Positions 1,661 to 36,876 of a DNA stretch of 36,876 bases are shown here, in pieces (position 1 is the stretch's first letter; every line of letters begins with the position of its first letter). A model generated the notes under the pieces. The model had not been told where the DNA came from and searched no databases. It worked only from the letters and a program-made list of their open reading frames with translations. Source of the stretch: Deltaproteobacteria bacterium (lineage in GTDB: Bacteria; Myxococcota_A; UBA796; UBA9615); contig JAGSHC010000031.1 in NCBI GenBank assembly GCA_023954745.1, positions 1-36,876 on the forward strand, given 5' to 3'. The position numbers and the translations under genes were made by a program.

Positions 1661-2824
1661 CTACTTCGTCCAGGAGCCCGAGTAGTCCAGGACTGCGTTC
1701 TTGTTCCAGAACTCCACCGTGATGGTGTTGCCCAGGATCTCGAACCAGATGAAGCCCTCCATGTCGTCGTCCGTGTCCTGCCAGTACACGGGATTGGAGC
1801 CTTCGATGTCGGTGCGCTTTGCGCCGCCGCCGCTCACCATCAGCTCCGTGCCCGCGCAGGTCTGCACGTTCCACTGGCGACTGTGGTCGTGACCGCACAG
1901 GTACAGGTCGACCTCCCCACAGACGTTCGCGTCCATGAAGTTCTTGATCTCGGTTCCCGCCGCGTAGGGCGTGAACGAAGGGAGACCCTCGTAGTTCCCG
2001 GCGTTCCCGTGAGGGCCGTTGGAGAGATACGGGTGGTGTCCGTAGGCGATCTTCCACTCCGCCGTCGACCCTGCGAGAGCCGAGGTGATCCACGTCTCCT
2101 GGTCATCGACGAGGTTCGTGATGATGGGGAAGCCGTCGAAGAACATCAGGGACGTGTCGAGGGAGAAGAACTCGGCGTTGGCGTGGGCGTGCGCGTAGTA
2201 CCGGTCGGGCATGGTCCAGTTCGTCGTGGTCGACGTGGTGTAGGCGACCTGCACGTTCCCCGCGAAGACGTCGAGGCCTGTCCCGCCGGCGCCTCCATCG
2301 TGGTTGCCGAGGGTGGGGTAGAACGGCATCTGGAGGTTCTGGTAGGGCGTCTCGAAGTGGGTCTCCCACAGGCTGTCGTTCACGTCCTCGACGCCGACGT
2401 CGTAGAAGTTGTCCCCCAGGAGGAGCGCAAAGTCGCATCCCTGCGCGGCGCAGACCGTCTCGATGGCGTCGGCCACCAATGCCTGGTCGGTGTTGCCCTC
2501 TCCCGTGTCTCCGAGGGCAACCCAGCGCACCGGCGTTGGGGCCGGGGTTCCGTCGTCGTCGTCGTCGGCGATGGTGCTGTCGTCGTCGTCGGCGACGGTG
2601 CTGTCGTCGTCGTTGGCGGTGCTGTCGTCGTCGTCGGCGACGGTGCTGTCGTCGTCGTTGGCGGCCGTGCTGTCGTCGTCGTTGGAGGCGGCCGTGCTGT
2701 CGTCGTCGTCGGCGACGTCATCGTCGTCGGGCACGACCACGTCGTCATCGTCCACAGGGGTGACGAAGCCGGCGTTGCAGGCGGGGAGCAGGAGCAGGAG
2801 CAGAAGGCAGGAGATTCTTGTCAC
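1661..2824 (-). CDS. Lipoprotein with Asp-rich linker and purple-acid-phosphatase-like metallophosphatase domain
   Basis: 387 residues from a GTG start at 2824. The N-terminus is a lipoprotein signal (leucine run, LLPAC, lipidated C16). Residues 25-91 form a low-complexity linker of NDDDST/DDDDST units. The rest is a calcineurin-like metallophosphoesterase with the five motifs of the tartrate-resistant acid phosphatase type: GDTG (105-108), GDNFY (137-141), GNHD (173-176), GHHP (262-265) and GHDH (311-314). These supply the two-metal site, so an active phosphomonoesterase is likely, tethered to the outer membrane or cell surface by the acidic linker. The same linker type occurs in three other lipoproteins in this window. 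First gene of a minus-strand unit with the hydroxyacid dehydrogenase and SDR. Substrate unknown. Confidence 0.88.
   Translation of the reverse strand: MTRISCLLLLLLLPACNAGFVTPVDDDDVVVPDDDDVADDDDSTAASNDDDSTAANDDDSTVADDDDSTANDDDSTVADDDDSTIADDDDDGTPAPTPVRWVALGDTGEGNTDQALVADAIETVCAAQGCDFALLLGDNFYDVGVEDVNDSLWETHFETPYQNLQMPFYPTLGNHDGGAGGTGLDVFAGNVQVAYTTSTTTNWTMPDRYYAHAHANAEFFSLDTSLMFFDGFPIITNLVDDQETWITSALAGSTAEWKIAYGHHPYLSNGPHGNAGNYEGLPSFTPYAAGTEIKNFMDANVCGEVDLYLCGHDHSRQWNVQTCAGTELMVSGGGAKRTDIEGSNPVYWQDTDDDMEGFIWFEILGNTITVEFWNKNAVLDYSGSWTK
2552..2752 (-). repeat. Imperfect Asp-rich coding repeat (DDDDSTxA units)
   Basis: In-frame repeat encoding residues 25-91 of the phosphatase lipoprotein. Units of 7-9 residues alternate between DDDDST and NDDDST followed by one to three small residues. 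The Asp codons are almost all GAC, so the DNA is a GAC/GTC-rich microsatellite-like tract that could change length by unequal pairing without breaking the frame. Confidence 0.85.
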
Positions 2825-10466: not shown

Positions 10467-11812
10467 CCCGCTCACGGTTCCTCATCCTCCCGCTCCTCCT
10501 TCTCGTGGTTCCGCTCCTGGGCGGCTGGAAGTTTCTGAGCCCGCCCCGCGCGTGGGACATCACCGACACGGGTCCGGGGGGCACCTGGCCCATCGAGTTC
10601 CACGCCGGGGATGTCGTGCCCCAGGGCCTCGACACCCACGAGGAGAAGTGGGATCTCATCCAGCAGTCCTACGACCACTGGGGCGAAGAGGTCCCCTGCT
10701 CGCCCATCGAGGCGGTTCAGGGCGCGGACATCAACAACAGCACGCAGGGATTCGGCGCGTCGGGCCTCACGACCCTTACGTTCAATGACCCGACCAATGC
10801 CCTGGGCTCCAGCACCCTCGCAGCGGCGTTGAGCTACACCAGCAACGGCGTGGTCACCAACAACGGGGTGACCTTCGCGGCCATCGCGGAGTCCCACATC
10901 GTCTTCAACGACTGGGTGGTCTGGGGAGACGCGGCGGACATCTCGGCCGCGTCCTGCTTCAACCGACACGACTTCATGTCGACGACCACTCACGAGATCG
11001 GACACACGATCGGCCTCGGTCACAGCTGCGAAGACGGCGAGGCGTGCAGCGACCCGTTGCTGCGCGGAGCGACCATGTACTGGTCCGGCGGCTCCTGCAG
11101 CAGCGCGAAGCGCATCCCCAACGAGGATGACGCTGCGGCCATCAACGTCGCCTACGGCGTCTCCATCGACTTCGAAATCGAGCCCGCCGACGGCCAGGAG
11201 CTGGTCGGTCCGGCTCCGCTCACTGCGTCCATGGACGTGCCGTCGGAGTACCAGGCCACGGTGGTCGAGTACGAGTGGAACTTCGGCGACGGGACCGAGC
11301 ACATCATCACCACCACCGCCGAGAGCGTGGAGCACACCTGGGAGGAGGAAGGGCAGTACACCGTCACCCTCAGCATCCTGGGCGAGGACGCCGAGTGCGG
11401 TGGCGAGTATGAGGCTGAGGAGCGCAAGGTCGGCGTCGTGCTGGTCTGCAACGAGCCCCGCCCCGCCTTCGAGTTCGTGAACGAAGGTGACTTCACGGTG
11501 CAGATCGAGAACGTCTCCGATCTGGGTGCCTTTGGCTGCATCACCGACTTCGTCTGGATTCTGGATGGCGACGAGGACAGCGCGCTGCGCACCTACGAGC
11601 CGACGTACGTGTTCGACGACAACTCGAGCCATACCGTGACTCTCCGAGCCTCGGGCCCTGGCGGTGAGACCGAGATCACCCAGACCATCGACCCGACCAA
11701 GCAGTCGGGCGAGGGATGCAGCGCCAGTGTCGCTGGGACCGAGCCCGTCGGACTGCTGGCCCTGCTTATCGGAATGATGGGTTTGGTGCCCCTCGCGCGT
11801 CGCCGCCGGTAG
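10463..11812 (+). CDS. Matrixin-like zinc metalloprotease with PKD domain and MYXO-CTERM-like anchor
   Basis: 449 residues from the ATG at 10463. An N-terminal signal segment precedes a metzincin catalytic domain with HEIGHTIGLGH (177-187; zinc ligands H177, H181, H187; catalytic E178) and a Met-turn (ATMYW, M205). A PKD-type domain follows (~235-325, EYEWNFGDGTEH), then a second PKD-like repeat (~332-412, FVWILDGDED). The C-terminus is GCSASVAGTEPVG (C419), a hydrophobic helix (~428-444) and RRRR, matching the MYXO-CTERM sorting-signal layout of Cys, transmembrane segment and Arg cluster. The protein is therefore expected to be exported, trimmed and attached to the cell surface. Extra cysteines around the active site (S-C-E-D-G-E-A-C) may form disulfides. 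Substrate unknown. Confidence 0.9.
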   Translation: MTRSRFLILPLLLLVVPLLGGWKFLSPPRAWDITDTGPGGTWPIEFHAGDVVPQGLDTHEEKWDLIQQSYDHWGEEVPCSPIEAVQGADINNSTQGFGASGLTTLTFNDPTNALGSSTLAAALSYTSNGVVTNNGVTFAAIAESHIVFNDWVVWGDAADISAASCFNRHDFMSTTTHEIGHTIGLGHSCEDGEACSDPLLRGATMYWSGGSCSSAKRIPNEDDAAAINVAYGVSIDFEIEPADGQELVGPAPLTASMDVPSEYQATVVEYEWNFGDGTEHIITTTAESVEHTWEEEGQYTVTLSILGEDAECGGEYEAEERKVGVVLVCNEPRPAFEFVNEGDFTVQIENVSDLGAFGCITDFVWILDGDEDSALRTYEPTYVFDDNSSHTVTLRASGPGGETEITQTIDPTKQSGEGCSASVAGTEPVGLLALLIGMMGLVPLARRRR

Positions 11813-17276: not shown

Positions 17277-17462
17277 CGCTTGGGGGGCGCGGCCTGGGGG
17301 GCCACGGCGGGTCCGCGTCAGTTTCCGCGCTTCCCTGTGCGCCGCCGAAACCCGGGCTGATAATGTCGCCCCGGTTTTGACCGTCGCCCGGTCCTACGGA
17401 GCGGTCCCGGACCAGGTGAGGGCATGACCTGCGCCCTCGCGAACGATCACCAAGGGGTTCTC

Positions 17463-18386
17463 ATGCGTCGCTCGATGCTCTTCATCCTGCTCATCCTCAT
17501 CTCTGCGGGCCTGCTCGCGTCCCCCGCCTTCGCGGCGAAGAAGAAGAAGAAGAAGAAGAAGAAGGGTGAGGAGGAGCCGCCGCCCGTCGGTGAGATGTTC
17601 GTCGGAAACCTGCCCTGCTACGCCCCGCCCGACTTCGCCGCGATGTCCGAAGGAAACCGCCGGATGGAGCGCCAGAAGGGCTTCCAGGCGGTGAACAAGC
17701 TCGTGACTGGCCAGGCGGTCGGCAAGGATGGAGCGCCTCTCGAGTCCTACAAGATCGAGATGGATGACTACGACTACTTCGAGCGTGCCTTCCTCGGCCG
17801 CCCGCAGCTGCTCGACTCCTGGCTGACGGAGAACTTCAAGAAGTGCTCCGACACCGGAAACAAGAAGATGAAGGAAGCCGACTACGTCAGCTACCTCGCC
17901 AAGATCGGCCGCGAGCTGGAGTCCAACGAGTGCTACCGCCCGCTGGACTATGAGTGGCACGACTTCTTGGACATCGGAACGGGCTGGCAGCGTCGCGTGC
18001 ATGCATGCAAGGGCGACAAGGTCCTCATCGAGGGCACCAACGCCGAGAACGGGCAGTACACCATCGCTGACACCGGCAAGATGGCGAACAACACGTTCAT
18101 CACGGCGGAGGGCGACCCGAACACCCCCGAGGCCGGCGAAGCTGGCCTCGTCCCCGAGCTGCCCCTGGGAGCGTTGGTGATGCGGTTCCAGGCTGAGGAC
18201 GACTCCTACACGAAGTACTACAAGATCGGCCTCGCGACGGAGTGGACGGCCCCGGACCACGGGTTTATTTCGTTCTCGGTCAACGACACGACCTACTACG
18301 ACAACAAGTTCCGCGACATCAAGGGCGCGATCGACTACCTCGGTGTGGACATCTACCCCGAGGAGACGGAGGACAAGGTCGAGTAG
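17463..18386 (+). CDS. Secreted protein with poly-Lys stretch and LecA/PA-IL-like C-terminal domain
   Basis: 307 residues from the ATG at 17463 (AAGGGG just upstream). Signal peptide MRRSMLFILLILISAGLLAS ends at PAFA-A; it is followed at once by nine Lys (26-34, nine AAG codons) and GEEEPPP. A charged middle region with five Cys (41-200) precedes a C-terminal domain (~200-300) whose layout resembles the PA-IL (LecA) galactose-binding lectin fold: VLIEGTNAENGQYTIADTG, then LPLGALVMRF, YYKIGLA, GFISFSVNDTTYYDN and YLGVDIY. In LecA the P-x-GALxxRIG and ND..YxDN segments line the calcium/sugar site. The match is by pattern and should be treated as tentative. Stand-alone gene downstream of atpE. 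Confidence 0.65.
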   Translation: MRRSMLFILLILISAGLLASPAFAAKKKKKKKKKGEEEPPPVGEMFVGNLPCYAPPDFAAMSEGNRRMERQKGFQAVNKLVTGQAVGKDGAPLESYKIEMDDYDYFERAFLGRPQLLDSWLTENFKKCSDTGNKKMKEADYVSYLAKIGRELESNECYRPLDYEWHDFLDIGTGWQRRVHACKGDKVLIEGTNAENGQYTIADTGKMANNTFITAEGDPNTPEAGEAGLVPELPLGALVMRFQAEDDSYTKYYKIGLATEWTAPDHGFISFSVNDTTYYDNKFRDIKGAIDYLGVDIYPEETEDKVE

Positions 18387-25725: not shown

Positions 25726-27327
25726 GTGGCAGACGACTCCAATGACGGCTCTCCCGGCTCGCGCCTCAGGGATGGCGCGCGCGCGGCCCGGTTTCTCGTG
25801 GGACAGCTGCGATCCCGAGCCTGGACCGTCGACGATCGACTGACCGCGGCTGCCCCGGAGCGCAAGCCGTCCGTGCTCCTGGTGAAGACTCCTCCGTGGG
25901 ACACCCGCCTCGCGCCCCTCGGGATCAACTACCTGAGCCGCTACCTGCGCACCCACGGCGTCGACGCGCCCGTCTGGGATTGCAACATCGACACCTACCT
26001 GCGCTTCCGCATGGACCAGAAGCAGCTCTGGGACATGGAGGAAGCGGTCTTCTGGTTCACGCCCGAGCGTGTGGCAGAGGTCTTCAACCACGAGTGCGAC
26101 ATCGTCGCCCGCCGCATCATCGAGGCAGACACTCCCTACGTCGGCTTCAGCCTGACGATGGAGGGCATCCAGTTCGCGAAGCTGGTCACGGACCGCATTC
26201 GTCGCGACGCGCCGGACAAGATCATCGTGATGGGTGGGCCCGGAGTGGCGTTCCCGGAGTTCCGCGCGCTCTTCCCGCGCGGGGCGGTGGACCTCTTCGT
26301 GGTGGGCGCCGGCGAGGAGGCCCTCCGGCTCATCGTCACTCAGGGAGTCAAGCCAGACGGCACCGCGCAGCACGGGCGCCTTCCGGACACCCTCCAGATG
26401 TGGCGGGATGAGCCCGACCACCCCGACTGCCCTCTCTGCATCAGCCACCCCGTCACTCCTCAGCAGTTCGAGCACCCGGACTTCGAGGGCATCGACCTGT
26501 GCAAGTACAGCGGGCGCGACCACATCGCTCTGATCATGGGTCGCGGCTGCTTTCGGTCGTGCGCCTTCTGCTCCGACAAGCCCGACCAGGGGAAGTACCG
26601 CGCCTTCGACTTCGAGAAGCTGATGCAGGCCATCGCCTTCTACAAGGAGCACTACTGGATCGGCGGGATCACCTGGAACGACTTGATCCTCAACGGGAAC
26701 ATCAACCAGCTCGAGCGGTACTGCGACGTGCTCTTGGAGAACAACGTCGACCTCGTCTGGGATGGTCAGGCCACCGCGCACCGCGTGATGAACAAGCGCC
26801 CGCACCTCTTCCACAAGATGGCGGACGCCGGCTGCACGGACCTCACCTACGGTCTCGAGTCGTTCAACAACGACGTGCTCGCCATTATGCGCAAGGGCTA
26901 CACCGAGGATGTCGCGGTCCACACCCTGCGCAACACCAAGGCCGCCGGGATGGTCACGGGGATCAACATGATCTGCGGCTTCCCCGGCGAGACGGAGGCG
27001 CAGTTCCAGCACACCCTGGACGCCCTCGAAGAGCATCGAGACGACATCGATCGCGTCACCTCGCTCAGTGTCTGCGCGGTGGTGCCCGGCTCTCCGCTGT
27101 GGACCGAGCACGCCAAGTTCGGCATCCAGCGTCCCAAGCCTGGCCACTATCACGAGTGGGAGACCCTGGACGGCACGAACACGCTGCCCGTGCGGATCGA
27201 CCGTCACGCGCGCATGAAGGCCCGGGTCGCTGAACTGGGGCTCAGTGCAGTGATTCAGAGCACCGACGAGTTCGACCCGGACGTGCGGGCGGAGCTCGCG
27301 CGGAAAGAAGCCCTCACGATGCGTTGA
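25726..27327 (+). CDS. B12-binding-domain radical SAM enzyme
   Basis: 533 residues from a GTG at 25726. An N-terminal cobalamin-binding-type Rossmann domain (~48-210) includes VLLVKTPPWDT, LGINYLSRYLRTHGVD, IIVMGGPGVAFPEFR and the GAGEEAL turn (194-200). The radical SAM barrel follows, with GRGCFRSCAFC (C275, C279, C282: the CxxxCxxC ligands of the [4Fe-4S] cluster). Later motifs are typical too: TYGLESFNNDVLAIMRKGY and GINMICGFPGETEAQF. Such enzymes use SAM and usually cobalamin for methylations or other C-C chemistry on lipids, cofactors or natural products. The N-terminal ~45 residues are extra. Substrate unknown; it stands alone on the plus strand, 36 bases before an Asp-linker lipoprotein gene. 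Confidence 0.92.
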   Translation: MADDSNDGSPGSRLRDGARAARFLVGQLRSRAWTVDDRLTAAAPERKPSVLLVKTPPWDTRLAPLGINYLSRYLRTHGVDAPVWDCNIDTYLRFRMDQKQLWDMEEAVFWFTPERVAEVFNHECDIVARRIIEADTPYVGFSLTMEGIQFAKLVTDRIRRDAPDKIIVMGGPGVAFPEFRALFPRGAVDLFVVGAGEEALRLIVTQGVKPDGTAQHGRLPDTLQMWRDEPDHPDCPLCISHPVTPQQFEHPDFEGIDLCKYSGRDHIALIMGRGCFRSCAFCSDKPDQGKYRAFDFEKLMQAIAFYKEHYWIGGITWNDLILNGNINQLERYCDVLLENNVDLVWDGQATAHRVMNKRPHLFHKMADAGCTDLTYGLESFNNDVLAIMRKGYTEDVAVHTLRNTKAAGMVTGINMICGFPGETEAQFQHTLDALEEHRDDIDRVTSLSVCAVVPGSPLWTEHAKFGIQRPKPGHYHEWETLDGTNTLPVRIDRHARMKARVAELGLSAVIQSTDEFDPDVRAELARKEALTMR

Positions 27328-27363: not shown

Positions 27364-28176
27364 ATGAACATTCTGTCACTTCGCTTCCTGCTGCTCGTTC
27401 TCCTGTCCCTCGCTGTGGGTTGCGCGCCGCTTCGTCGCGGAAGCGGTAGAGGTGGCGGGAGCGACGATGACGACTCTGCTTCCGCGGACGACGACGACGC
27501 GACGGGTGACGACGACGACGCAACGAGCGACGACGACGACGACGCAACGAGCGACGACGACGACGATGACGACGACGACGACGGGGCTCCAATCCCCAAT
27601 GAAGACGACATCCTCGGGGTGACCTTCGCGCTGAATCTCGAGAACGCGACCTGGGTGGAGCCGGCTGGGGTGGGACCGCTCCTCGTCGGTCAGCTCGAGA
27701 ACGACATTGGTTTCTCGCCACTGCCGAGCAGCAACCTCGGAGGGAATGACATCGAGCTTCGGCTCGGTGCCTTGGAGCTGGGGGGGGGCCAGGACCCCTG
27801 CATTGAGACCTCAACCTCGAACGGCGATTGGGCAAACCCGACGGCCGACGTGAGCGGGGGCGTGATTCTGCTGGGAGGCTTCCCCTTGGACCCGGCGTCG
27901 CTGGTCATCGTCTTCGGGTCGACATCGAGCATCATCGACGGGTCCCTCAGCGGGACTACGGACATGCGCAACCTGTACGCGGACGTGGGCTTGGGGAGTC
28001 CGGACGAGCTCTGCGACCTGCTTGTGTCGGTGGGCTCGACTTGCGCTCCTTGCTCCGATGGCCAGAGCTACTGCCTCGACTTCGAGATTGAAGACCTCAC
28101 GGGCTCCATCGCGTTGGAGTTGCCACTTCAAGCCCGCACTGAGGCGGACGTCGACAGCGACCCCAACTGCAACTGA
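27364..28176 (+). CDS. Lipoprotein with Asp-rich linker and conserved C-terminal domain (paralogue of the 35795 gene)
   Basis: 270 residues, ATG with GGAG nine bases upstream. Signal ends LLSLAVGC (C20). After an Arg/Gly spacer, residues 34-73 are DDDDATG/DDDDATS units ending in a run of ten Asp. The C-terminal ~190 residues are beta-rich. They share a pattern with the protein at 35795-36595: NATWVEPAGV versus SVTWVSPSAGV, SPLPSSNLGGNDIELRL versus SPLSVVGSTIDVRL, and the late CAPCSDGQSYCLD versus CFPCSGDATADCID. This is an unrecognised paralogous domain with a CxxC motif, likely displayed at the surface by the acidic linker. Its stop is four bases from the opposing lipoprotein stop. Confidence 0.82.
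   Translation: MNILSLRFLLLVLLSLAVGCAPLRRGSGRGGGSDDDDSASADDDDATGDDDDATSDDDDDATSDDDDDDDDDDGAPIPNEDDILGVTFALNLENATWVEPAGVGPLLVGQLENDIGFSPLPSSNLGGNDIELRLGALELGGGQDPCIETSTSNGDWANPTADVSGGVILLGGFPLDPASLVIVFGSTSSIIDGSLSGTTDMRNLYADVGLGSPDELCDLLVSVGSTCAPCSDGQSYCLDFEIEDLTGSIALELPLQARTEADVDSDPNCN
27463..27582 (+). repeat. Asp-rich coding repeat (DDDDATG/S units)
   Basis: In-frame GAC-rich tract encoding residues 34-73 of the lipoprotein, with seven- or eight-residue units ending in a pure Asp run. Similar tracts lie at 2552, 35885 and 36698. Confidence 0.85.
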
Positions 28177-28180
28177 AGGC

Positions 28181-28735
28181 TCAGCCCGGCTGCGCGGGAG
28201 CTCCCGGTAGGCCGGGGTTGTAGGGGCCCACGAGGATGTCGGCCTCCGTCGCCGCTGCCGCGTCCATCACCCGGTACAGCTCGATGGCCCCTCCGATGTC
28301 GGCCGGGCAGGCCACGTTCTGCTTGCCGTAGGCGGAGTCGCCCCGCAGGACCCACGCGGTGACCGTGCTCTCGTCTTCGCTCATGTAGAAGCCGTGCACG
28401 CCCCACTCGCCGAGGCAGCCTCCGAGCTGCACGCTGACGACGACGATGGCTTCGCCCTCTTCGAGGTCATCCGCCACGGCGACCACCGCGTCCTGGACCT
28501 CCTGGTTGTTCCCGGCGCAGTCGTTGGCGAGGAAGTCGGCGGCCTCGGACCCGTCGTGGATCAAGAAGGCGTCGTCCCGGAAGAAGTCGCAGAACAAGCC
28601 TCCGGGGTCCATGGCGATGGAGGTGAACTCTTCCAGCGCGGTGCCGTCGGGCGGGGGGCCGCCGGAGTTGTCGGCGCAGCCCACGAGTGGGGCCGCAAGA
28701 GCCAGCGCGGCAAGACAGAGAAGCAAGCGGTGCAT
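28181..28735 (-). CDS. Hypothetical lipoprotein, second of a tandem paralogous pair
   Basis: 184 residues, lipoprotein signal ending PLVGC (C20), followed by ADNSGGPPPDG. The mature domain has Cys at positions shared with its neighbour: FC near the start, a DC in the middle, SVQLGGC, and YGKQNVAC near the end. It ends ILVGPYNPGLPG, like LVGIWNPELPG in the neighbour. These conserved features show tandem duplication of one unrecognised domain. Three bases separate its ATG from the stop of the upstream copy, so they are co-transcribed. Function unknown. Confidence 0.82.
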   Translation of the reverse strand: MHRLLLCLAALALAAPLVGCADNSGGPPPDGTALEEFTSIAMDPGGLFCDFFRDDAFLIHDGSEAADFLANDCAGNNQEVQDAVVAVADDLEEGEAIVVVSVQLGGCLGEWGVHGFYMSEDESTVTAWVLRGDSAYGKQNVACPADIGGAIELYRVMDAAAATEADILVGPYNPGLPGAPAQPG

Positions 28736-28738
28736 GAC

Positions 28739-29284
28739 CTACTCCTCGCCGAGGATGGTGACGGGACCGCCGGGCAGCTCGGGGTTCCAGATTCCCACGA
28801 GCATCTCGATCGTCTCGGCATCCGCTGCACCCTCGACCACGATCATGGACTGGCCCTCGCCGAGGTCGTCGGTGCACGCGATGTTGTTGCGACCGTAGCT
28901 GGTGTCCTCCTTGAGCATCCAGACGTTCAGCTCGGCTCCGTCGAGGTACACGCCAGCGACGTCGAAGTCTTGGATGCAGCCCCCGAGCTGGGCGCTCACC
29001 ATGATGAGGGTCTCGTTCTCGAGCAAGCCCGCGAAGGCAGCCTCGATGTCGGCGCGGGCGTCCTCCTGGTCGGTGCATCCCTCCATCCAGGAGTCGATGT
29101 CTTCGTCGGAGTCGATGAACTTCGCGCTGTCCTGGGCCTGGCAGAAGATGCTCGGCTCCCCGACGACCTCAAACTGAAGAGCCTCGCCGGCTGGGGGCTC
29201 ACCCCCGCTGTTGTCGACGGGTGCACACGCAGCGGTGAGCGAGAGGAGGCAAAGGGCAAGGGTGGTGGATCGGAACACGTGCAT
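28739..29284 (-). CDS. Hypothetical lipoprotein, first of a tandem paralogous pair
   Basis: 181 residues, signal ending LTAAC (C20). The mature part is very acidic (for example DSDEDIDSW) and shares with the following gene the segments IFC, SAQLGGC, SYGRNNIAC and the NPELPG ending. The four conserved Cys may form two disulfides. The ribosome site (GGAG six bases before the ATG) lies at and inside one arm of a predicted hairpin, see 29285-29325, so translation may be controlled. No family recognised. Confidence 0.82.
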   Translation of the reverse strand: MHVFRSTTLALCLLSLTAACAPVDNSGGEPPAGEALQFEVVGEPSIFCQAQDSAKFIDSDEDIDSWMEGCTDQEDARADIEAAFAGLLENETLIMVSAQLGGCIQDFDVAGVYLDGAELNVWMLKEDTSYGRNNIACTDDLGEGQSMIVVEGAADAETIEMLVGIWNPELPGGPVTILGEE

Positions 29285-29325
29285 CGGTCTCTCCCAGGTG
29301 AGCCGTTCAAGGTGGCTCGAGAGAC
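29285..29325 (-). promoter_or_regulatory. Leader hairpin that would sequester the ribosome-binding site
   Basis: In the mRNA of the minus-strand lipoprotein, GUCUCUCGAGCC (from 29325) can pair with GGCUC (29304-29300) and GAGAGAC (29293-29287), giving 5 + 7 base pairs with a 6-base bulge and a 9-base loop. The second segment overlaps the GGAG Shine-Dalgarno and ends two bases before the ATG. Such a structure could act as a thermosensor or attenuator. The remainder of the gap to 29397 is featureless. Confidence 0.45.
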
Positions 29326-29397
29326 GGCAAAGCGCGATCCGTGCCGAGGGCGTCGGGCGGGGGCGTGCCCGACGGCCTCGGAGGACTCAGGCGGGAG

Positions 29398-30015
29398 CTA
29401 CTTGCTCTTGTTCAGCTCGAGCTCGAGCTCGATGGTCACGTCCTCGCCGACCACGAGGCCGCCGGTCTCCAGGACGTTGTTCCACTCGAGGCCGTACTCC
29501 GTGCGGTTGACGGTGGTCTTGGCGGTGGCGCCGGACTTCGTGTTGCCCCACGGGTCGACGACTCCCGAGACCCAGTCGGTGACGTTCAGAGTGACCTCCT
29601 TGGTGGTCCCGCGCATGGTGAGGTCACCCACGAGATCGAACGACGTTCCGTCGGCGCCGACGTTGACCACCTTCTTGCTCTTGAAGGTCATCGTGGGGTG
29701 GTTGGCGGCGTCGAAGAAGTCGGGGCTCTTGAGGTGCTCGTCGCGCTTGCTGTTCTCGGTGGAGATGGAGGCGATGTCGATGGTGACCTCGGCCGACAGC
29801 TTCGTCAGGTCCTTGCCGTCGTAGTCGATGGTCGCCTCGACCTTGCTGAAGTCTCCGCGCACCCAGCTGACCGCGAGGTGCCGCACCTTGAAGCCCACGT
29901 GGCTGTGAGCGGCATCGATGGTCCAGGTGTCGGCCTGAGCGCTCGACGGAGCGAGGGAGACGAGGGAGAGCGCGGCAGCTGCAGCGACGGCGAGGGTGGT
30001 GCGAATCAGGGTCAT
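29398..30015 (-). CDS. YceI-family periplasmic protein
   Basis: 205 residues from an ATG at 30015 with a strong CGGAGG ribosome site. Signal peptide MTLIRTTLAVAAAAALSLVS ending near SSAQA, then the YceI lipocalin-like barrel: WTIDAAHSHVGFKVRHLAVS, VRGDFSKVEATIDYD, KLSAEVTIDIASISTENSKRD, EHLKSPDFFDAANHPTMTFKS, VGDLTMRGTTKEVTL. YceI proteins bind polyisoprenoid or other amphiphilic lipids in the periplasm. Length and motifs are standard. Own promoter likely upstream. Confidence 0.95.
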   Translation of the reverse strand: MTLIRTTLAVAAAAALSLVSLAPSSAQADTWTIDAAHSHVGFKVRHLAVSWVRGDFSKVEATIDYDGKDLTKLSAEVTIDIASISTENSKRDEHLKSPDFFDAANHPTMTFKSKKVVNVGADGTSFDLVGDLTMRGTTKEVTLNVTDWVSGVVDPWGNTKSGATAKTTVNRTEYGLEWNNVLETGGLVVGEDVTIELELELNKSK

Positions 30016-30064
30016 GGCGACCTCCGTGTGTGTGTTCAGTGCGCCGGGGTGCGGCGACGAAGGA

Positions 30065-30092
30065 ATCCTAATTCGCCCATCTCGGATGTGAA
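30065..30092 (-). promoter_or_regulatory. Candidate promoter of the YceI gene
   Basis: On the minus strand TTCACA (30092-30087), 16-base spacer, TAGGAT (30070-30065), about 50 bases before the ATG. An 8-bp palindrome TTGCGCAA (30101-30108) sits just upstream of the -35 element and could be a regulator site. The rest of the 190-base divergent gap shows no clear promoter for the plus-strand gene. Confidence 0.4.
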
Positions 30093-30205
30093 TCCCACGC
30101 TTGCGCAACGTACTGGTGCGAAAAATGGACGAAACAGGATGAACCGGCCAAAACGCGGCCGACTTCGCCGCCGAGTACCCTCTGTACGGGAGCATCATTC
30201 GACCC

Positions 30206-32194
30206 ATGCCTCAGCAGAGCGACCCGGCCCGGCCCGATCGAGCGCGCGCCCTCGCGGTGTTGGGTGTGGTTGCGCTCACTGCCGCTCTGAATGCGCCGGC
30301 CCTCGCCCGTTGGTTCGACAATCCCGACGACTGGATTCACCTCGCCCAGGCCCAGGCCGTCCTCGCTGGTGACCCCGGGGTCCTGGGGCGAGTCCTGGTC
30401 GGGGACCCCGGTCTCGCCTCGCTCCGTCCGGTGCCGAAGCTCTTCTGGCTAGTCGACTACGCCGTGTGGGGCTGGTCCGCGGGCGGCTACTTCCTCACCA
30501 ACCTGCTGCTCCTCTGCGCGTTGACCGCTGGGGTCGCCGCTCTGGTGGCCCGAGTCACGGAGTCCGCTGGAGCCGGGGTCGCTGCGGCGTCCCTCGTCGG
30601 ACTCTCCGTCGCCACGAACCAGCCCATGTACTACCTCGCGGCGCGGGACGACCTGCTCGCGGCGGTCTTCAGCGTGGGGGCGCTCCTCGCTTGGGAGCGG
30701 GGCAGGGAGCGCCTGCGTGGGCGCTCCCTCGCCGCGGCGCTCACGCTGTTCGCGCTGCTGTGCAAGCCCTCGGGAATCCTGATTCCAGTGGCGATGCTGG
30801 CCCTCGATCCGCGGGGGGGACTGCGCGCGCGTCTGGGTCGGCTGGCCCCGGTGCTCGCCGCCGTCGGTCTTTACGGCGTGATGCTCGTGGCAGCCATCGG
30901 CCTCGATCTCTCGAGACTGATGGCTGGCGGCGCCCCCTGGCAGCCGCTCGTCGCCCTCAAGAACCTCGTGCTGCCGGTGGTGCTGCCCAGCCTCGCTCGC
31001 TCAGGTCGCGCCCCTTCGCTCGTGCACGACCTGCCGCGCCTCATCGCCCTCTCCCTCGTCGTCATCGCCTCACTGCGGACCTCGACGGACCGGCTTACCG
31101 GCGCGGGGCTGGTGGTGTGTGCGTCGGGCGCCTTGATGCACCTGCCGTTCCTGGGCACGGCCGAGTTCGTCCTTCAAGACAGCGGCCGCTACTTGCTCCT
31201 GGTGGTGGCAGGGGTTGGAATCGCCGTCGGCGGAGCGCTCGGGCGCATGCCCTCCACCGCGCGCAAGCCTCTCGTCTGGTCAGTCGTGGCCGCCAGCGTG
31301 TTTGGCTTCGCCCTCGGCGCTCTCCCTGGCCTCAGCAAGGACCTCGGCGCCAGTCGCGCGCTCTTCGAGAGCCTGACGGCGGAGCGGGACGCCGGCCACG
31401 GGATGGACGAGGTGTTCGTGGGCATCTCGTTGCCCGAGCGCGGGCTGCTCAGCTTCGTGACCTCGGAGGCCCTCGCGCGCGCACTGGCGGGGAGCCCCCG
31501 CTCCTTCATGCAAGGAACCGGCGCGTTGCTGCTTCCTTTGGGAGACCACGGCGAGATTCGGCTGTCCAAGGAGCGATTCCAGTCATCCCAGGTGGGCAAC
31601 GGCACGCTGTTGGTGGACCGGGGAGCGCTGCGGCCGACCTTCACGAGGGTCACCACTCCTCCCCCAGCCCGCGGCGAGGACCGAACCCTCGCTCTCGGCG
31701 CCGGATGGGGCTTTCAGCCGGACCCGCAGTGGCGCGCCACGCCCCCTCCCGTCGTGACCGACGACGGCGTCACAGTGCAGACACGCTCAACGCTGTCGTG
31801 GATCTCCCTGGGCCGCACCCTGTCGGCGATGGTGGTCCCGCCCAGTCATCTTGGGCGGTCGATCGAGCCCCTGGCCTCGTCCAGTGTGTGTGCCATCGAG
31901 CTCTCCCTGACGCTTGCCTCCGCGGCCGCTTCGCGAGGCCCCCGGGCCGCCCCGGGGACGCCAAAGCAGTTCGCGATGGTGATGTTCTCGGGGGACCAGA
32001 CCCCGGCTCACCCTGCGGATCACGCCCTCGTCGTGCCCCTCGGCGACACGAGGGACCGCCAGACCGTGCGGCTCGAGCTGGACTCCAGCCCGGGCTGGGC
32101 CGCGGTGCCGGAGATTCGCTGGCTGGGCCTGATGCCATCCAGCGTGCCGGCCCATGTGACAATCCATGAGCTCCGCCTGGTTGGCTGCCGCTGA
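30206..32194 (+). CDS. Multi-pass membrane protein, GT-C glycosyltransferase-like
   Basis: 662 residues. The N-terminal ~400 residues hold about ten transmembrane helices, with an acidic motif DNPDDWIHL (38-46) in the first extracytoplasmic loop. This matches the position of the catalytic acidic residues of GT-C (PMT/ArnT-like) enzymes that use polyprenyl-phosphate sugars. A second loop motif, YYLAARDDLLAAVFS (~142-156), fits the conserved helix pattern of the same group. The C-terminal ~270 residues are a soluble domain, probably periplasmic, with beta-rich character. Converges (31-base gap) with the epimerase and radical SAM-GT2 unit, so the three may serve the same glycan. Donor and acceptor unknown. 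Confidence 0.65.
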   Translation: MPQQSDPARPDRARALAVLGVVALTAALNAPALARWFDNPDDWIHLAQAQAVLAGDPGVLGRVLVGDPGLASLRPVPKLFWLVDYAVWGWSAGGYFLTNLLLLCALTAGVAALVARVTESAGAGVAAASLVGLSVATNQPMYYLAARDDLLAAVFSVGALLAWERGRERLRGRSLAAALTLFALLCKPSGILIPVAMLALDPRGGLRARLGRLAPVLAAVGLYGVMLVAAIGLDLSRLMAGGAPWQPLVALKNLVLPVVLPSLARSGRAPSLVHDLPRLIALSLVVIASLRTSTDRLTGAGLVVCASGALMHLPFLGTAEFVLQDSGRYLLLVVAGVGIAVGGALGRMPSTARKPLVWSVVAASVFGFALGALPGLSKDLGASRALFESLTAERDAGHGMDEVFVGISLPERGLLSFVTSEALARALAGSPRSFMQGTGALLLPLGDHGEIRLSKERFQSSQVGNGTLLVDRGALRPTFTRVTTPPPARGEDRTLALGAGWGFQPDPQWRATPPPVVTDDGVTVQTRSTLSWISLGRTLSAMVVPPSHLGRSIEPLASSSVCAIELSLTLASAAASRGPRAAPGTPKQFAMVMFSGDQTPAHPADHALVVPLGDTRDRQTVRLELDSSPGWAAVPEIRWLGLMPSSVPAHVTIHELRLVGCR

Positions 32195-32225
32195 GTCGGG
32201 GCCCGGGCCGGCCGGAGGTCCGCCC

Positions 32226-33242
32226 TCAGTCGATGCCGAGCAGCCGCTTCAGGCCCACTTCGGGACCGGTCGTGGGAGCCCACCCGTAAGCCGCAGTCGT
32301 CGCAGAGACGTCGGTCACGAAGACCTTCTGGTCGCCAGAGCGCTCGTCGAGGAAGCTCATGTTGGCCGTCTTCCCGCTCAGCCGCTCCAGAGCGCGCACC
32401 ACCTCGAGGAGCGAGCGCGAGCTGGCCGCGCTCCCCCCGACGTTGAGGGTGCAGCCCACCGTGGGAGCCGGTCCGTCGACGATGCGCAGGTACAGGTCGA
32501 CGAGGTCGTCCACGAACAGCATGTCGCGGGTCGTCTTGCCGTCGCCGAAGATGCGCAGCGGCAGGCCCTCGGTGACGGCCTTGCCGAACCACGCCACCCA
32601 GCCCTGGTCTTCTTGCTGGCTCTGGCGGGGTCCGTAGATGCACGAAGCGCGCAGGACGACGGTCTCCATCCCCCAGGTGCGGGCGGCGTCGCGGAAGTAG
32701 GCCTCGCCGGTGCCCTTGCTGACTCCGTAGGGGGTCTGCGGGTCGAAGGGGCGGTCGTTGCCGATGCCCTCGGGCATTCCGATGAGGCGGAGGCGGTCGC
32801 CGGCGGGATCGGGCTCGAAGCCGAGGTCTTCCAGTCCGCCGTAGACCTTGTTGGACGACATGTAGAGGCAGCGTGCCTTGGGGCAGAAGCGCCGCGCCGC
32901 CTCGATGACGTGAAAGGACCCAAGGGCGTTCACCGCGAAGTCGCGGGCGGGGTCCTCCATCGACCAGGTCACGGCGACCTGAGCAGCCAGGTGGTAGACG
33001 GCATCGAGGGGTGCCGCTTCGCAGTGACGGCCGAAGGCGGCTCGGACAAAGTCGCCGTCGACGATGTCGCCGATCTCGGTGTGCAGCGCGCCGCCGAGCT
33101 GGCGGGTCGCATCGAGGCGCTCGGTGGAGCCGGGTCGGGACAGGTCGTCGATCACCACGACTTCGTCGCCGCGGGCGAGCAAGGCGCGGACCAGGGTCGT
33201 CCCGATGAAACCAGCCCCGCCGGTGACCATGATGCGGCTCAT
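32226..33242 (-). CDS. NAD-dependent epimerase/dehydratase, CDP-tyvelose (paratose) 2-epimerase-like
   Basis: 338 residues from the ATG at 33242, which overlaps the stop of the radical SAM-GT2 gene (ATGA) and has GGGGAG upstream. Extended SDR: NAD motif GGAGFIG (8-14), active-site S129/S130 and YGVSK (Y172, K176). Several segments fit the RfbE/Tyv family, which interconverts CDP-paratose and CDP-tyvelose: AQVAVTWSMEDPARDF, YMSSNKVYG (127-135), QEDQGWVAWFGKAV and RSGDQKVFVTDV. This points to a nucleotide-sugar 2-epimerase making a deoxy- or unusual hexose; UDP-glucose 4-epimerase-like activity cannot be excluded. Strict coupling to the fused enzyme suggests a joint glycan pathway. Confidence 0.85.
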   Translation of the reverse strand: MSRIMVTGGAGFIGTTLVRALLARGDEVVVIDDLSRPGSTERLDATRQLGGALHTEIGDIVDGDFVRAAFGRHCEAAPLDAVYHLAAQVAVTWSMEDPARDFAVNALGSFHVIEAARRFCPKARCLYMSSNKVYGGLEDLGFEPDPAGDRLRLIGMPEGIGNDRPFDPQTPYGVSKGTGEAYFRDAARTWGMETVVLRASCIYGPRQSQQEDQGWVAWFGKAVTEGLPLRIFGDGKTTRDMLFVDDLVDLYLRIVDGPAPTVGCTLNVGGSAASSRSLLEVVRALERLSGKTANMSFLDERSGDQKVFVTDVSATTAAYGWAPTTGPEVGLKRLLGID

Positions 33243-35668
33243 CGGGCGGTCTCCCCGGACGTCGTCATGCGCTGCAGCGTGCGCTGCCACCGACAGTGCT
33301 CCATGTCCTGCTCGAACTCCGAGAACGCCTCGCCAACCCACTCGGCGCCTACCCGGCGTCGGCCAAGGAGCTTGCGTCGCTCGTCAAGGGTGCGGGTGGC
33401 CGACGAGGCTCCCGCCGCGAAGCCGCGCAACAGGCCCGCTGGCGAACGTCCACGGCGTGCACCGCGCCACAGATCTGCTGCCAGTTCGAGCGCCAGGGGA
33501 GCAGCCGCTGCCTGCCAATTCTCCCGCGGGAGGGTCTTGAGGAGCATGCGGACACGACCCTGGGCCCAGCGCTCAGCGGCGACGGGGTCCGACAGCGCGT
33601 CGTGCTCGGCGAGCAGCGAGGTGTCCTCGAGCAACTCCACCCCGGGGCCGGCGGCAAACCAGGCCCGGTAGCCGAGGAGCAGCCCGCGTACACCGAGGTC
33701 CGCGTCCGCGAGCTCGAAGGGCAGGTCGGGGTCGAATCCCCCGGAGTCCTCGAGGAGGGCGCGCGAGAAGAGCCCCGCCCGGGAGGAGACGGCGGCGACG
33801 GTTGCGTCGTCGTGGCCCTCCGGCCGCGCGGTGAGCACCCGCCCCCAGCGAGAGACGGAGAGCGCCGAGGACACCGCCGGTGACGAGAGCCCTGCATTCG
33901 CCGCGACGTGCAGGGGAACCGCGAGGGCACCGGCGTCGGGATGGCGTCGGCTGGCGTCCAGGACCGACTCGAGCCAGCCGGGGCGGGGCAGGGCCCCCGA
34001 GTGAAACAGTGCGATCCACCGCCCGGTGCACGCAGGCGCCACGCGGTTGGCCATGGCGGCCAACGGCTCCCCCGGGTCCGCGTCCACGAAGGTCGCCCAG
34101 TCGCAGACCGCGGCGGCCGCCGCTTCGAGGGACGGATCCGAGCGGTCCGCGACGATCACGATCTCGCGGGCCGGGCCCTCCTGAGCGAGCAGGGACTTGA
34201 TGGCCTGCTGCATCCACTCGGCCTGGCCGGCCCGCACGAGCAGTCCCGCGGAGATGCCGGACCCCCCGATCTCGCTGATGGGGATCTGCGGCGCGATGGT
34301 CGTGGGGCGCTCCCGCGTCTCCCAACGCCGGTGGATGCCGTGTACGAAGCTGATGATCTGCTCGGCCTCGAGGGCGTCGGTGCTGACTACGCCGGTGCGG
34401 TAGCCATCGAGGGCGTCGAAGTCGATGTCGCCCTCGGCCAGGCGTCCCTCGGCGATCATCTGGTCGTAGAACCGCGAGCCCGGGAAGGGCACGGCGATGG
34501 TGAACTGCGCCGAGTCCGGGTCGAGCTCGTACGCGAGGTCGAGGGTGCGCTGCATGGTGTCGAGGGTCTCCCCCGGCAGCCCGAACATGAAGGTGAGGTG
34601 GATGGCGACCCCCTGGGCCTTCGCCGCCCTCACCGAGCGACGCACCGCGTCCACGTCCAGGTTCTTCCCGATCTGCTTGAGCCGTGCCGTGTCCGCGCTC
34701 TCGACCCCGTACTTCACTGCCTTCAGCCCCGTGCGGGCGAGGGCTGCGTACTGGTCGGGGTGACAGGTGTCGGCGCGTCCCATGAAGGCCCAAGGAGCGT
34801 TGATCCCGCGGTCTTCGAACGCCTTGATGAGGTCGGCCGTGCGCTTCTTGCCGAGGTTGAACGTGTCGTCGTCGAAGTAGACGGACGCGTAGCCCTGCTC
34901 GAGCAACGAGGCGACTTCGTCAGCGACGGCGGCGGCGGAGCGCACGCGGTACTGATTGTCGCCATAGAGGATCTGTGGCCAGGCGCAGAAGTCGCAGGTG
35001 AAGGAGCAGCCGCGGGAAGCCCACATCTGCACCGAGGGGGCGGGAATTCCGCCGGGCAGATCGTGGTAGCGGTCCATGGGGAAGAGGTGGCGCGCCGGCA
35101 GGGGGAAGTCGTCGAGGTCTTCCTGACTGTGCTTGCGTCCGCCGTCCAGAATCTGGTTGCCTCGCCGCCAGATGAGTCCCGGGATGGCGTCCTTGGGGCC
35201 CTGGGGATCGTCGGCGAGGGTGCGCAGGAGGTCGCGCAACGTCAGCTCGAACTCCCCGACGAGGGTGCCTTCGATGAGCGGCAGCCCGGCCAGGAACTCG
35301 GTCCCGTACAGAGGCTTGTGTAGACCGCCGAGCACGATGGGGCCGGTGTAGCCCGCGTCTTCGCGCAGAGCCGCGACGGTGCGAATGTCTTCGGTGAGGG
35401 ACGGCGTGCTGATCTCCGCCATCACGAACTCGGGGTCGAACGCCTTCACCCGCTCGATGAATTCGGTGCGGCCGATGCGCTCGGCGCACGCGTCGATGGC
35501 CATGACCTCGTGCCCATCCTCCTCCAGAACCGCGGCCGCGTAGCCGAGCAGGAAGGGGAACGGCATATACGGCGACTCAGCCCGCTCCATGTGGGGCCAG
35601 CGAGAACCGGCGCGGACGCCGTACCAGCCGGGGCGGAGCCAAGGCGGATTGGTAAGAAGGACCCTCAT
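33239..35668 (-). CDS. B12-binding radical SAM enzyme fused to a family-2-like glycosyltransferase domain
   Basis: 809 residues from the ATG at 35668 (a longer frame upstream has no membrane or domain features). Domain order: cobalamin-binding-like Rossmann domain (~1-180; VLLTNPPW, LGYAAAVLEEDGHEVMAIDA, GPIVLGGLHKPLYG); radical SAM barrel (~215-450) with ASRGCSFTCDFCAW (C221, C225, C228), YFDDDTFN (264-271) and FMFGLPGETLDTM; then a GT-A-like region (~470-690). The latter shows the GT2 layout: QAIKSLLAQEGPAREIVIVAD, TGRWIALFHSGALPRPGWLE, and GGFDPDLPFELADADLGVRG. The metal-binding DxD expected in the FLDSDxxP position is HSG (556-558), so transfer may be lost or altered. A helical C-terminus (~695-809) follows. 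Coupled to a nucleotide-sugar epimerase by a four-base overlap. Confidence 0.88.
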   Translation of the reverse strand: MRVLLTNPPWLRPGWYGVRAGSRWPHMERAESPYMPFPFLLGYAAAVLEEDGHEVMAIDACAERIGRTEFIERVKAFDPEFVMAEISTPSLTEDIRTVAALREDAGYTGPIVLGGLHKPLYGTEFLAGLPLIEGTLVGEFELTLRDLLRTLADDPQGPKDAIPGLIWRRGNQILDGGRKHSQEDLDDFPLPARHLFPMDRYHDLPGGIPAPSVQMWASRGCSFTCDFCAWPQILYGDNQYRVRSAAAVADEVASLLEQGYASVYFDDDTFNLGKKRTADLIKAFEDRGINAPWAFMGRADTCHPDQYAALARTGLKAVKYGVESADTARLKQIGKNLDVDAVRRSVRAAKAQGVAIHLTFMFGLPGETLDTMQRTLDLAYELDPDSAQFTIAVPFPGSRFYDQMIAEGRLAEGDIDFDALDGYRTGVVSTDALEAEQIISFVHGIHRRWETRERPTTIAPQIPISEIGGSGISAGLLVRAGQAEWMQQAIKSLLAQEGPAREIVIVADRSDPSLEAAAAAVCDWATFVDADPGEPLAAMANRVAPACTGRWIALFHSGALPRPGWLESVLDASRRHPDAGALAVPLHVAANAGLSSPAVSSALSVSRWGRVLTARPEGHDDATVAAVSSRAGLFSRALLEDSGGFDPDLPFELADADLGVRGLLLGYRAWFAAGPGVELLEDTSLLAEHDALSDPVAAERWAQGRVRMLLKTLPRENWQAAAAPLALELAADLWRGARRGRSPAGLLRGFAAGASSATRTLDERRKLLGRRRVGAEWVGEAFSEFEQDMEHCRWQRTLQRMTTSGETAR

Positions 35669-35794
35669 TTCCGGGCCATGGAGTCTAGCCCATGGTCCCC
35701 GACATTCGCCGAGACAGTGACCAGGGCGTACCGGCGCACCCCCGGGAGGGAGCTCACCTCTGCTAAAGACGTCGGGTCGCGATTGGAGACCCTG

Positions 35795-36595
35795 GTGCAA
35801 AAGTCCGCGTGGTTGCTGAGCTTCGCAATGCTGTGTACAGCCTGTAGCCCCGGGGGGCGCGGTGGCGGGAGCGGCTTCAGCAGTGACGACGACGACTCCG
35901 GTTCGGACGACGACGACTCCTCCTCCCCTGACGACGACGACGCGACGAGCGACGACGACGACGCGACGAGCGACGACGACGACGACGCGACGAGCGACGA
36001 CGACGACGCGACGAGCGATGACGACGACGCCACGAGCGATGACGACGACGCCACGAGCACCGGATACCCCTGGGAGGGCGACGCCTTCTGCCTCGACTGG
36101 AGCTCAGTCACCTGGGTGAGTCCCTCCGCCGGGGTGGTCACGACGCTGAGCGGCCTCGGCTTCAACGTCACCGACTCGCCGCTGCTGCTCTCGCCCCTGT
36201 CCGTCGTGGGATCGACCATCGACGTGAGGCTCGCGGCGGCGACGGCGAACACGTGCAACCAGGACATCTCCCTATCTACCGCCGACGAGTCGGGGTCCTG
36301 GAGCGAGCCCACCTTCGACTTCGGGCCGACCGACCTCACCTTGCCCCTCGTGGTTGGCTCGGTGTCCCTCTACGACGTCGCGTTCGACGGTGACATCAGC
36401 AGCACGGGCACCCAGATCACCGGTTCATCCATCGAGGGCGAGCTGCAAGTCCCCAGCCTCGCGTCCTCGGCCTGTACCTTTGTCCTCACGTGCTTCCCAT
36501 GCTCGGGCGACGCGACCGCCGACTGCATCGACCTGGACGTCCAGAACGCCACGTGGAACAACGTCGGCGCCGGTCCGCTCCTCTCCGTCCCCTGA
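35795..36595 (+). CDS. Lipoprotein with Asp-rich linker, paralogue of the 27364 gene
   Basis: 266 residues from a GTG at 35795, chosen because GGAG lies six bases upstream and the signal segment begins at once. Signal WLLSFAMLCTAC gives a lipidated C17; the Cys at -3 is unusual for a lipobox. Residues 31-88 are DDDDSGS/DDDDATS units. The C-terminal domain (~90-266) matches the 27364 protein in several segments (SVTWVSPSAGV, SPLSVVGSTIDVRLAA, CFPCSGDATADCID) and likely has the same fold. Twelve bases before the next Asp-linker lipoprotein gene, so they form an operon. The 126-base divergent gap to the radical SAM-GT2 gene shows no clear promoter. Function unknown. Confidence 0.8.
   Translation: MQKSAWLLSFAMLCTACSPGGRGGGSGFSSDDDDSGSDDDDSSSPDDDDATSDDDDATSDDDDDATSDDDDATSDDDDATSDDDDATSTGYPWEGDAFCLDWSSVTWVSPSAGVVTTLSGLGFNVTDSPLLLSPLSVVGSTIDVRLAAATANTCNQDISLSTADESGSWSEPTFDFGPTDLTLPLVVGSVSLYDVAFDGDISSTGTQITGSSIEGELQVPSLASSACTFVLTCFPCSGDATADCIDLDVQNATWNNVGAGPLLSVP
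35885..36058 (+). repeat. Asp-rich coding repeat, 21-bp units (DDDDATS)
   Basis: Encodes residues 31-88. Several consecutive units follow a 21-bp period (four GAC, then GCG or GCC, ACG, AGC), with one 24-bp unit having five Asp. Confidence 0.88.
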
Positions 36596-36607
36596 CCCTG
36601 GAACCTC

Positions 36608-36876
36608 ATGCGCCTTCACACCCTGCTTCTTCTTCTCCTCCTCTCCCTCGCCGTCGGCTGCGGCACTTCGGGGCGTCTCGGCGGCGACCGGAGCAGTGAC
36701 GACGACGACTCTGCCGCGGGGAGCGACGACGACGACGCCGCGGGGGACGACGACGACGCCGCGGGGGACGACGACGACGCCACGGGCGACGACGACGACG
36801 CCACGGGCGACGACGACGACGCCACGGGCGACGACGACGACGCGACGGGCGATGACGACGACGCCACGGGCGACGA
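36608..36876 (+). CDS. Asp-linker lipoprotein, 5' part only (cut by window edge)
   Basis: Starts at the ATG 36608, twelve bases after the previous stop. The 89 complete codons encode the lipoprotein signal MRLHTLLLLLLLSLAVGC (C18), closely like LLSLAVGC in the 27364 protein, then GTSGRLGGDRSS and a linker of DDDDAAG and DDDDATG units that runs off the window end with no stop. This is the third member of the paralogous Asp-linker group in the second half of the window and probably carries a similar C-terminal domain beyond the edge. It is co-directional with and probably co-transcribed with the 35795 gene. Confidence 0.8.
   Translation, partial: MRLHTLLLLLLLSLAVGCGTSGRLGGDRSSDDDDSAAGSDDDDAAGDDDDAAGDDDDATGDDDDATGDDDDATGDDDDATGDDDDATGD
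36698..36876 (+). repeat. Near-perfect 21-bp coding tandem repeat (DDDDATG), open at window end
   Basis: After two early irregular units, at least seven consecutive units of GAC-GAC-GAC-GAC-GCC-(GCG/ACG)-GG(C/G) are seen. Low divergence between units suggests recent expansion by slippage or unequal recombination. Confidence 0.9.

Follow-up and report, generated by a model that had tools for sequence, protein, structure and literature searches.

Why do several lipoproteins encoded on one contig carry long, aspartate-rich repeats after their signal sequences? The question is raised by contig C29 (JAGSHC010000031.1) of the Deltaproteobacteria bacterium assembly GCA_023954745.1, all 36,876 bases of which were analysed (hereafter, the window); its end is the contig end and lies within the stalk of the third of these proteins. 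An initial annotation had described three open reading frames (ORFs) with lipoprotein signals and Asp-rich stalks, here called P1, P2, and P3. These are real: according to our own pattern rule, not a trained predictor, the signal sequences end in a lipobox Cys, and D-rich stalks of 40 (P1), 55 (P2), and at least 55 residues (P3) follow. A stalked lipoprotein absent from that annotation, with a calcineurin-like phosphoesterase domain, raises the number in the window from three to four.

We consider it probable that the repeats form a portable, disordered, and strongly anionic tether that joins a folded domain to its membrane anchor. The anchor would be an N-terminal lipidated Cys or, in other proteins, a processed C-terminal MYXO-CTERM tag. 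Charge repulsion would keep the stalk extended, so that the domain stands off by as much as about 15 to 30 nm (contour length), and a characteristic reach would be kept for each protein while tandem duplication rewrites the repeat units inside the stalk. As far as sequences can tell, the earlier suggestion holds: the lipoproteins are paralogs, their stalks are acidic, and the stalks likely serve as an extended spacer.

Position of the stalks and the domains they carry

Among 73 sampled stalk ORFs, 62 had the stalk directly after a lipobox, three had it before a MYXO-CTERM-like end, two were cut at the 5′ end, and six belonged to none of these groups. The lipobox-stalk arrangement was present in 39 of the 45 ORFs sampled without a lipobox in the query; the remaining ORFs were found with a lipobox-like query. 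The gap between lipobox and stalk is 2–41 aa (median 6.5; 3 aa or less in 6 of the 62), and residue +2 after the lipobox Cys is Pro in 38 of the 62. The six other ORFs are L016 (an acidic tail, no stalk), L087(+) (an apparent wrong-frame artefact), L099 (an open 5′ end), L013 and L029 (a stalk at the ORF end, contig-cut in L013), and L104.

The MYXO-CTERM model (TIGR03901) scored over its curated cut-off at 68 places in the genome and at none in 14 control genomes. In the 70 aa upstream of the best 50 of the 68 places, two or more Asp runs occur in 22 cases, one in nine, and none in 19; as a control, the 104 gene calls of a blind sample were scanned over the 80 aa that precede the last 24 residues, and none had two Asp runs there. 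P1, P2, and the phosphoesterase, all three of them lipobox proteins, were absent among the listed MYXO-CTERM matches. Judged by sequence, one kind of stalk is common to two anchor types at opposite protein ends; it is attached to unrelated domains and in most cases adjoins the anchor, whichever end that occupies. According to PMC11980579, M. xanthus sorts MYXO-CTERM proteins to its cell surface, which by analogy would suggest display there, rather than in the periplasm, for the stalked lipoproteins.

The stalk is a modular element of these protein sequences. The 51 stalked tails with at least 80 aa, from a total of 64, matched 31 Pfam families, and among the 25 families listed, 21 were matched by a single member only. 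Among the phosphoesterases, four of the six members from the window's own family, f1, carry a complete stalk of Asp runs; the remaining two are cut by a contig start, with Asp runs at the cut. Outside f1, the same place is filled in phosphoesterase relatives by DDDTGTP, (DT)n, (DA)n, (EP)n, SDGGT, or STTTPTG linkers; this survey was used for linker type only, since 10 of its 30 loci had no linker and the Cys was wrong for L110, L121, L127, and L132.

P1 and P2 have related C-terminal parts as well. The initial annotation had made this claim depend on an alignment, and the two parts do align (32% identity over 171 aa, E 5e-9 in a single comparison), with the CxPC motifs, CAPC and CFPC, in register. 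Of 58 genomes from the class, 55 contain matches to this CxxC domain. Neither P1 nor P2 matched Pfam at E up to 0.1; P1 gave a single NCBIfam match, far sub-threshold and inside the stalk, and none among plasmid records. AlphaFold2 modelled the domain, with the two window copies as input, at a mean pLDDT of 32. Contig C291 probably carries the rest of P3, which would give P3 the CxxC domain too, because the last 191 bases of the window and the first 191 of C291 align in register with 185 identities, and because gene order agrees: C291 runs on into the same C-terminal domain as that of P1 and P2, and in G001, a genome of the same genus, a relative of P2 (44% identity) directly precedes a relative of the C291 domain (53%). 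Less probably, C291 encodes a recent paralog and not the continuation of P3.

Length and composition of the stalks

Linker length in the CxxC family is related to the presence of an Ig-like domain. Members with a Big_5-type domain have a median linker of 30 aa (n = 36), and those without it 67 aa (n = 13; p = 2e-4); linkers shorter than 44 aa occur in 27 of the 36 versus none of the 13. Within f1, the two groups do not overlap, with 19–31 aa in seven members that have the Ig-like domain and 53–119 aa in seven that lack it. Members with a visible lipobox and a complete domain were counted (15 ORFs in which no lipobox was visible were left out, as were two whose domain was partial). The Big_5-type domain was recognised by our own model; of five examples submitted to Pfam, two passed the Big_5 cut-off and three fell below it. 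We read the longer linker of members without the Ig-like domain as a spacer trade-off and as evidence for reach.

The initial annotation had also raised the possibility that stalk length is phase- or strain-tuned. This was not supported: in seven pairs of proteins from this genome (G000) and G001, stalk lengths are similar despite turnover of the units in most of them. The genome set has one genome per species, and the comparison is between two species; the seven pairs are those found, not a random draw. The stalks measure 75/81, 68/63, 74/68, 24/22, 46/39, 25/23, and 21/16 aa (ratios 0.93–1.31), and with one gap rule adjusted the lengths correlate at r = 0.986, with 4 of 5040 permutations as close. 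The original rule had split one G001 stalk, and only that value was altered. In most pairs the units have been replaced, for example ATS or ATG by TTAG or TTAA. On/off switching from gain or loss of units is not expected, because the repeat periods are multiples of three and only the length changes. L301 was taken as the full-length G001 relative, with short stalk-to-stalk matches disregarded; another G001 match scored about equally. L080, L294, and L301 form a paralog cluster with a second, internal Asp stalk away from the anchor, which is present in G001 too. The fasciclin-type protein L031(−) has no G001 relative and only partial matches in G005, and hence gave no length pair.

The commonest units are DDDDATG, DDDDATS, and DDDDSG; most units have 5–9 residues, and 62% of the stalk residues are Asp. 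In 62 lipoproteins, the stalks have an Asp:Glu ratio of 1511:10 and the tails one of 1420:675 (open-ended tails left out); these stalk counts come from the wider of two stalk definitions, and the narrower one, which could split arrays at Glu, gave 1538:1. Residue identity, and not the DNA repeat alone, appears to be kept, because the stalk codons for Ala (GCC:GCG 165:106) and Thr (ACC:ACG 77:77) frequently end in G as well as in C, but the Glu codon GAG is nearly absent (GAC:GAG 1394:8). Units with the same amino acids differ by 1.09 nt within arrays versus 1.92 nt when shuffled among arrays, and none of 300 shuffles reached the former value; local duplication therefore rewrites the arrays. 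From the Cys to the stalk end, 53 stalks have a median of 44 residues (up to 88) and a median net charge of −22, and the contour length computed at 0.36 nm per residue is ~16 nm at the median and 32 nm at the maximum.

Distribution of the stalks and features of the window

Coding sequence for DDDDAT gave 266 + 173 = 439 matches in the genome versus 0 + 0 for a reversed-pattern control. Across 58 genomes, the six of family f1 had 9 to 555 matches and the others 0 to 26. This pattern under-counts other unit types: G002 had nine matches to it and 130 to a pattern of three DDDD blocks with a 7-residue period. The three-block pattern was matched in 35 of 188 genomes drawn from the phylum; the three drawn f1 genomes had 340, 130, and 325 matches, and the other 185 genomes 31 or fewer. 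The listed matches in these 185 are for the most part extended stretches of almost pure Asp, confined to one locus or a few. The relatives that have names are uncultured genomes: ‘Deltaproteobacteria’ OFTM289, UBA6601, and ERR2206756_bin.78, and the start of the stalk gene in the last resembles that of a G001 stalk gene. Judging from PMC11980579, the presence of MYXO-CTERM suggests that the genome belongs to Myxococcota. The blind sample (20 contigs, 142 kb, 104 gene calls) contained two stalked genes among about 12 lipoproteins, and the lipobox rule missed one of the two. The stalks mark a subset of the lipoproteins, perhaps 100 genes genome-wide if extrapolated from these two.

The stalk repeats break the assembly. 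Contig ends cut 13 of the 73 sampled stalks (L013, L015, L018, L022, L036, L037, L075, L078, L079, L095, L098, L101, and the window end), and assembled stalk lengths are therefore uncertain; several MYXO-CTERM tails with Asp runs are also located at contig ends. None of the 38 true ends of the 20 blind contigs lies inside a stalk, so stalks account for only part of the breaks. Since stalks fragment assemblies, reports from metagenome-type genomes may include too few of the envelope proteins that carry them.

The stalked lipoproteins of the window are collected in Table 1. The 21-bp repeat unit described in the initial annotation holds for the P2 and P3 arrays and not for that of P1: Tandem Repeats Finder reported a period of 24 with 4.3 copies and 88% matches for P1 (27487–27583), a period of 21 with 6.0 copies and 92% matches for P2 (35930–36058), and a period of 21 with 8.2 copies and 89% matches for P3 (36698–36876).

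Table 1. Stalked lipoproteins of the window and their parts
Feature	Coordinates	Strand	Remarks
Stalked lipoprotein P1	27364..28176	+	Lipobox Cys at ~27421, 13-residue gap, stalk, C-terminal CxxC domain
P1 Asp stalk, 40 aa	27463..27582	+	
P1 CxxC domain	27583..28173	+	Relatives are P2 and proteins from 55 of the 58 class genomes
Stalked lipoprotein P2, GTG start	35795..36595	+	
P2 Asp stalk, 55 aa	35885..36049	+	
P2 CxxC domain	36059..36592	+	
Stalked lipoprotein P3, cut by contig end inside stalk	36608..36876	+	Probable continuation: start of contig C291
P3 Asp stalk, incomplete	36698..36876	+	
Fourth stalked lipoprotein	1661..2824	−	Lipobox, Asp stalk, calcineurin-like phosphoesterase (PF00149)
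Phosphoesterase Asp stalk, 67 aa	2552..2752	−	

Beside P1 lie two adjoining, similar lipoproteins without stalks (28181–29284, − strand), with no Pfam family over the cut-off. A radical SAM/B12-binding protein was recognised by Pfam at 25726–27327, and a long ORF at 33239–35800 (− strand) looks by eye like a B12-type radical SAM protein fused to a glycosyltransferase-like part. At 10412–11812 (+ strand), a metalloprotease-like protein (by eye) has a MYXO-CTERM-like end of 17.2 bits, under the cut-off, and no stalk. In the ORF at 17424–18386 (+ strand), a GAA repeat (17537–17564) encodes a run of about nine lysines right after a signal-like sequence, opposite in charge to the stalks.

Competing explanations and known systems

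Asp runs near a lipidated Cys might be a sorting signal, read by an export machine like the lipoprotein export signal (LES) of Bacteroidetes, with a long stalk representing several copies. SDDDD is the LES predicted for B. fragilis, and in C. canimorsus surface exposure was weaker once two Asp had been replaced by two Glu (PMC5080379); the near-exclusion of Glu from the stalks and their restriction to a subset of the lipoproteins, about 2 of 12 in the blind sample, would fit such a signal. According to the same source, however, the position of the LES is critical, whereas here the gap of 2–41 aa is variable, is 3 aa or less in only 6 of 62 cases, and often begins with Pro at +2 (38 of 62). The same stalk also precedes C-terminal anchors, and a sorting signal would need neither a similar stalk length for each protein between species nor a relation to the Ig-like domain. 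We regard this explanation as quite unlikely. The preference for Asp, almost to the exclusion of Glu, would also suit a calcium-dependent element, in which Asp clusters bind Ca2+ or another cation and stiffen the stalk or bridge cells and matrix; the matches of stalked tails include the MopE metal-binding, TSP3, and Ca2+-dependent PI-PLC families. That relatives have other linkers in the same place, including the nearly uncharged STTTPTG, makes a calcium-dependent role decidedly improbable in our judgement. Neutral growth, in which GAC-rich repeats expand by slippage where tolerated and the stalk has no function, would explain why units are more alike within an array than between arrays and why dense stalks are concentrated in one family. 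It is hard to reconcile with the scarcity of GAG when GCG and ACG are common, with the similar lengths in two species, or with the mostly anchor-adjacent position, and we disfavour it as very improbable.

The anionic tether that we prefer has observations against it as well. The near-exclusion of Glu exceeds the needs of a generic spacer. Not every stalk adjoins an anchor: closer reading showed that L156, L162, and L214, three of the 22 counted at MYXO-CTERM anchors, lack a continuous anchor-abutting stalk, the stalks of L031(+) and the L080/L294 family are internal or interdomain, and lipoprotein L104 has its stalk near the C terminus. L028(−), L087, and L100 consist of little beyond a signal sequence and an Asp stalk. 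The length comparison depends on one pair that needed the wider gap rule (13 to 68 aa; unadjusted, r = 0.61, with 11 of 5000 shuffles as close), on a second that requires C291 to continue P3, and on a third (38% identity) that may not be strictly orthologous, and the stalk lengths come from fragmented assemblies. In the CxxC family, linkers of 54–89 aa occur in nine of the 36 members with an Ig-like domain, none of them in f1 (the Cys is doubtful in at least one, L279), two proteins with Big_7 that were first counted as Ig-less were removed after inspection, and the members share ancestry, so that the 36 and 13 are not independent points. A more far-reaching version of the tether, a universal surface mast in one family, in which an Asp-only module beside either anchor marks the protein for the outside and sets its height, with the height under stabilising selection and the repeats continually rewritten, seems conceivable but unlikely.

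The tether turns the function of low-complexity linkers after a lipobox into a testable question. If reach is the trait under selection, genome sequences would reveal, through linker length, how high a protein stands above the membrane. Anchor-proximal tethers are already known; we found no description of an Asp-only, anchor-adjacent stalk in Myxococcota in a literature search by title and abstract start, in which several queries covered only a small part of the matches.

Among known systems, the region next to MYXO-CTERM in TraA is intrinsically disordered (PMC11980579), resembling the segment beside the anchor of a surface protein that is predicted here; an Asp repeat is not described there (the main text contains no ‘aspart’, ‘repeat’, or ‘linker’), whereas here one stalk serves both anchor ends. 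The LES shares Asp-rich residues after the lipidated Cys and the preference for Asp over Glu (PMC5080379). It comprises a few residues at a critical position, in contrast to the tens of residues at a variable gap, and also at C-terminal anchors, described here; acidic residues are not fixed at +3 to +5 after the Cys in the stalks. Periscope Proteins have surface-attached stalks of highly identical tandem repeats that set reach (PMC9704523), and the present stalks, whose reach is presumed, resemble them in part. Their repeats are individually folding rod domains in variable number, while units of 5–9 residues should not fold alone. The SD stalks of staphylococcal ClfA and Sdr proteins are also Asp-containing, low-complexity, minisatellite-encoded repeats beside the anchoring region, and a certain number of SD repeats is needed for functional display of ClfA (PMC3324548). 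They differ in consisting of SD dipeptides rather than DDDD units, in their Gram-positive cell-wall anchor, and in their unstable, polymorphic copy number, as against a lipobox or MYXO-CTERM anchor at either end and a similar length in two species. The Asp stalk is thus placed by its sequence outside the SD and LES kinds, and would work like the SD stalks and partly like Periscope Proteins.

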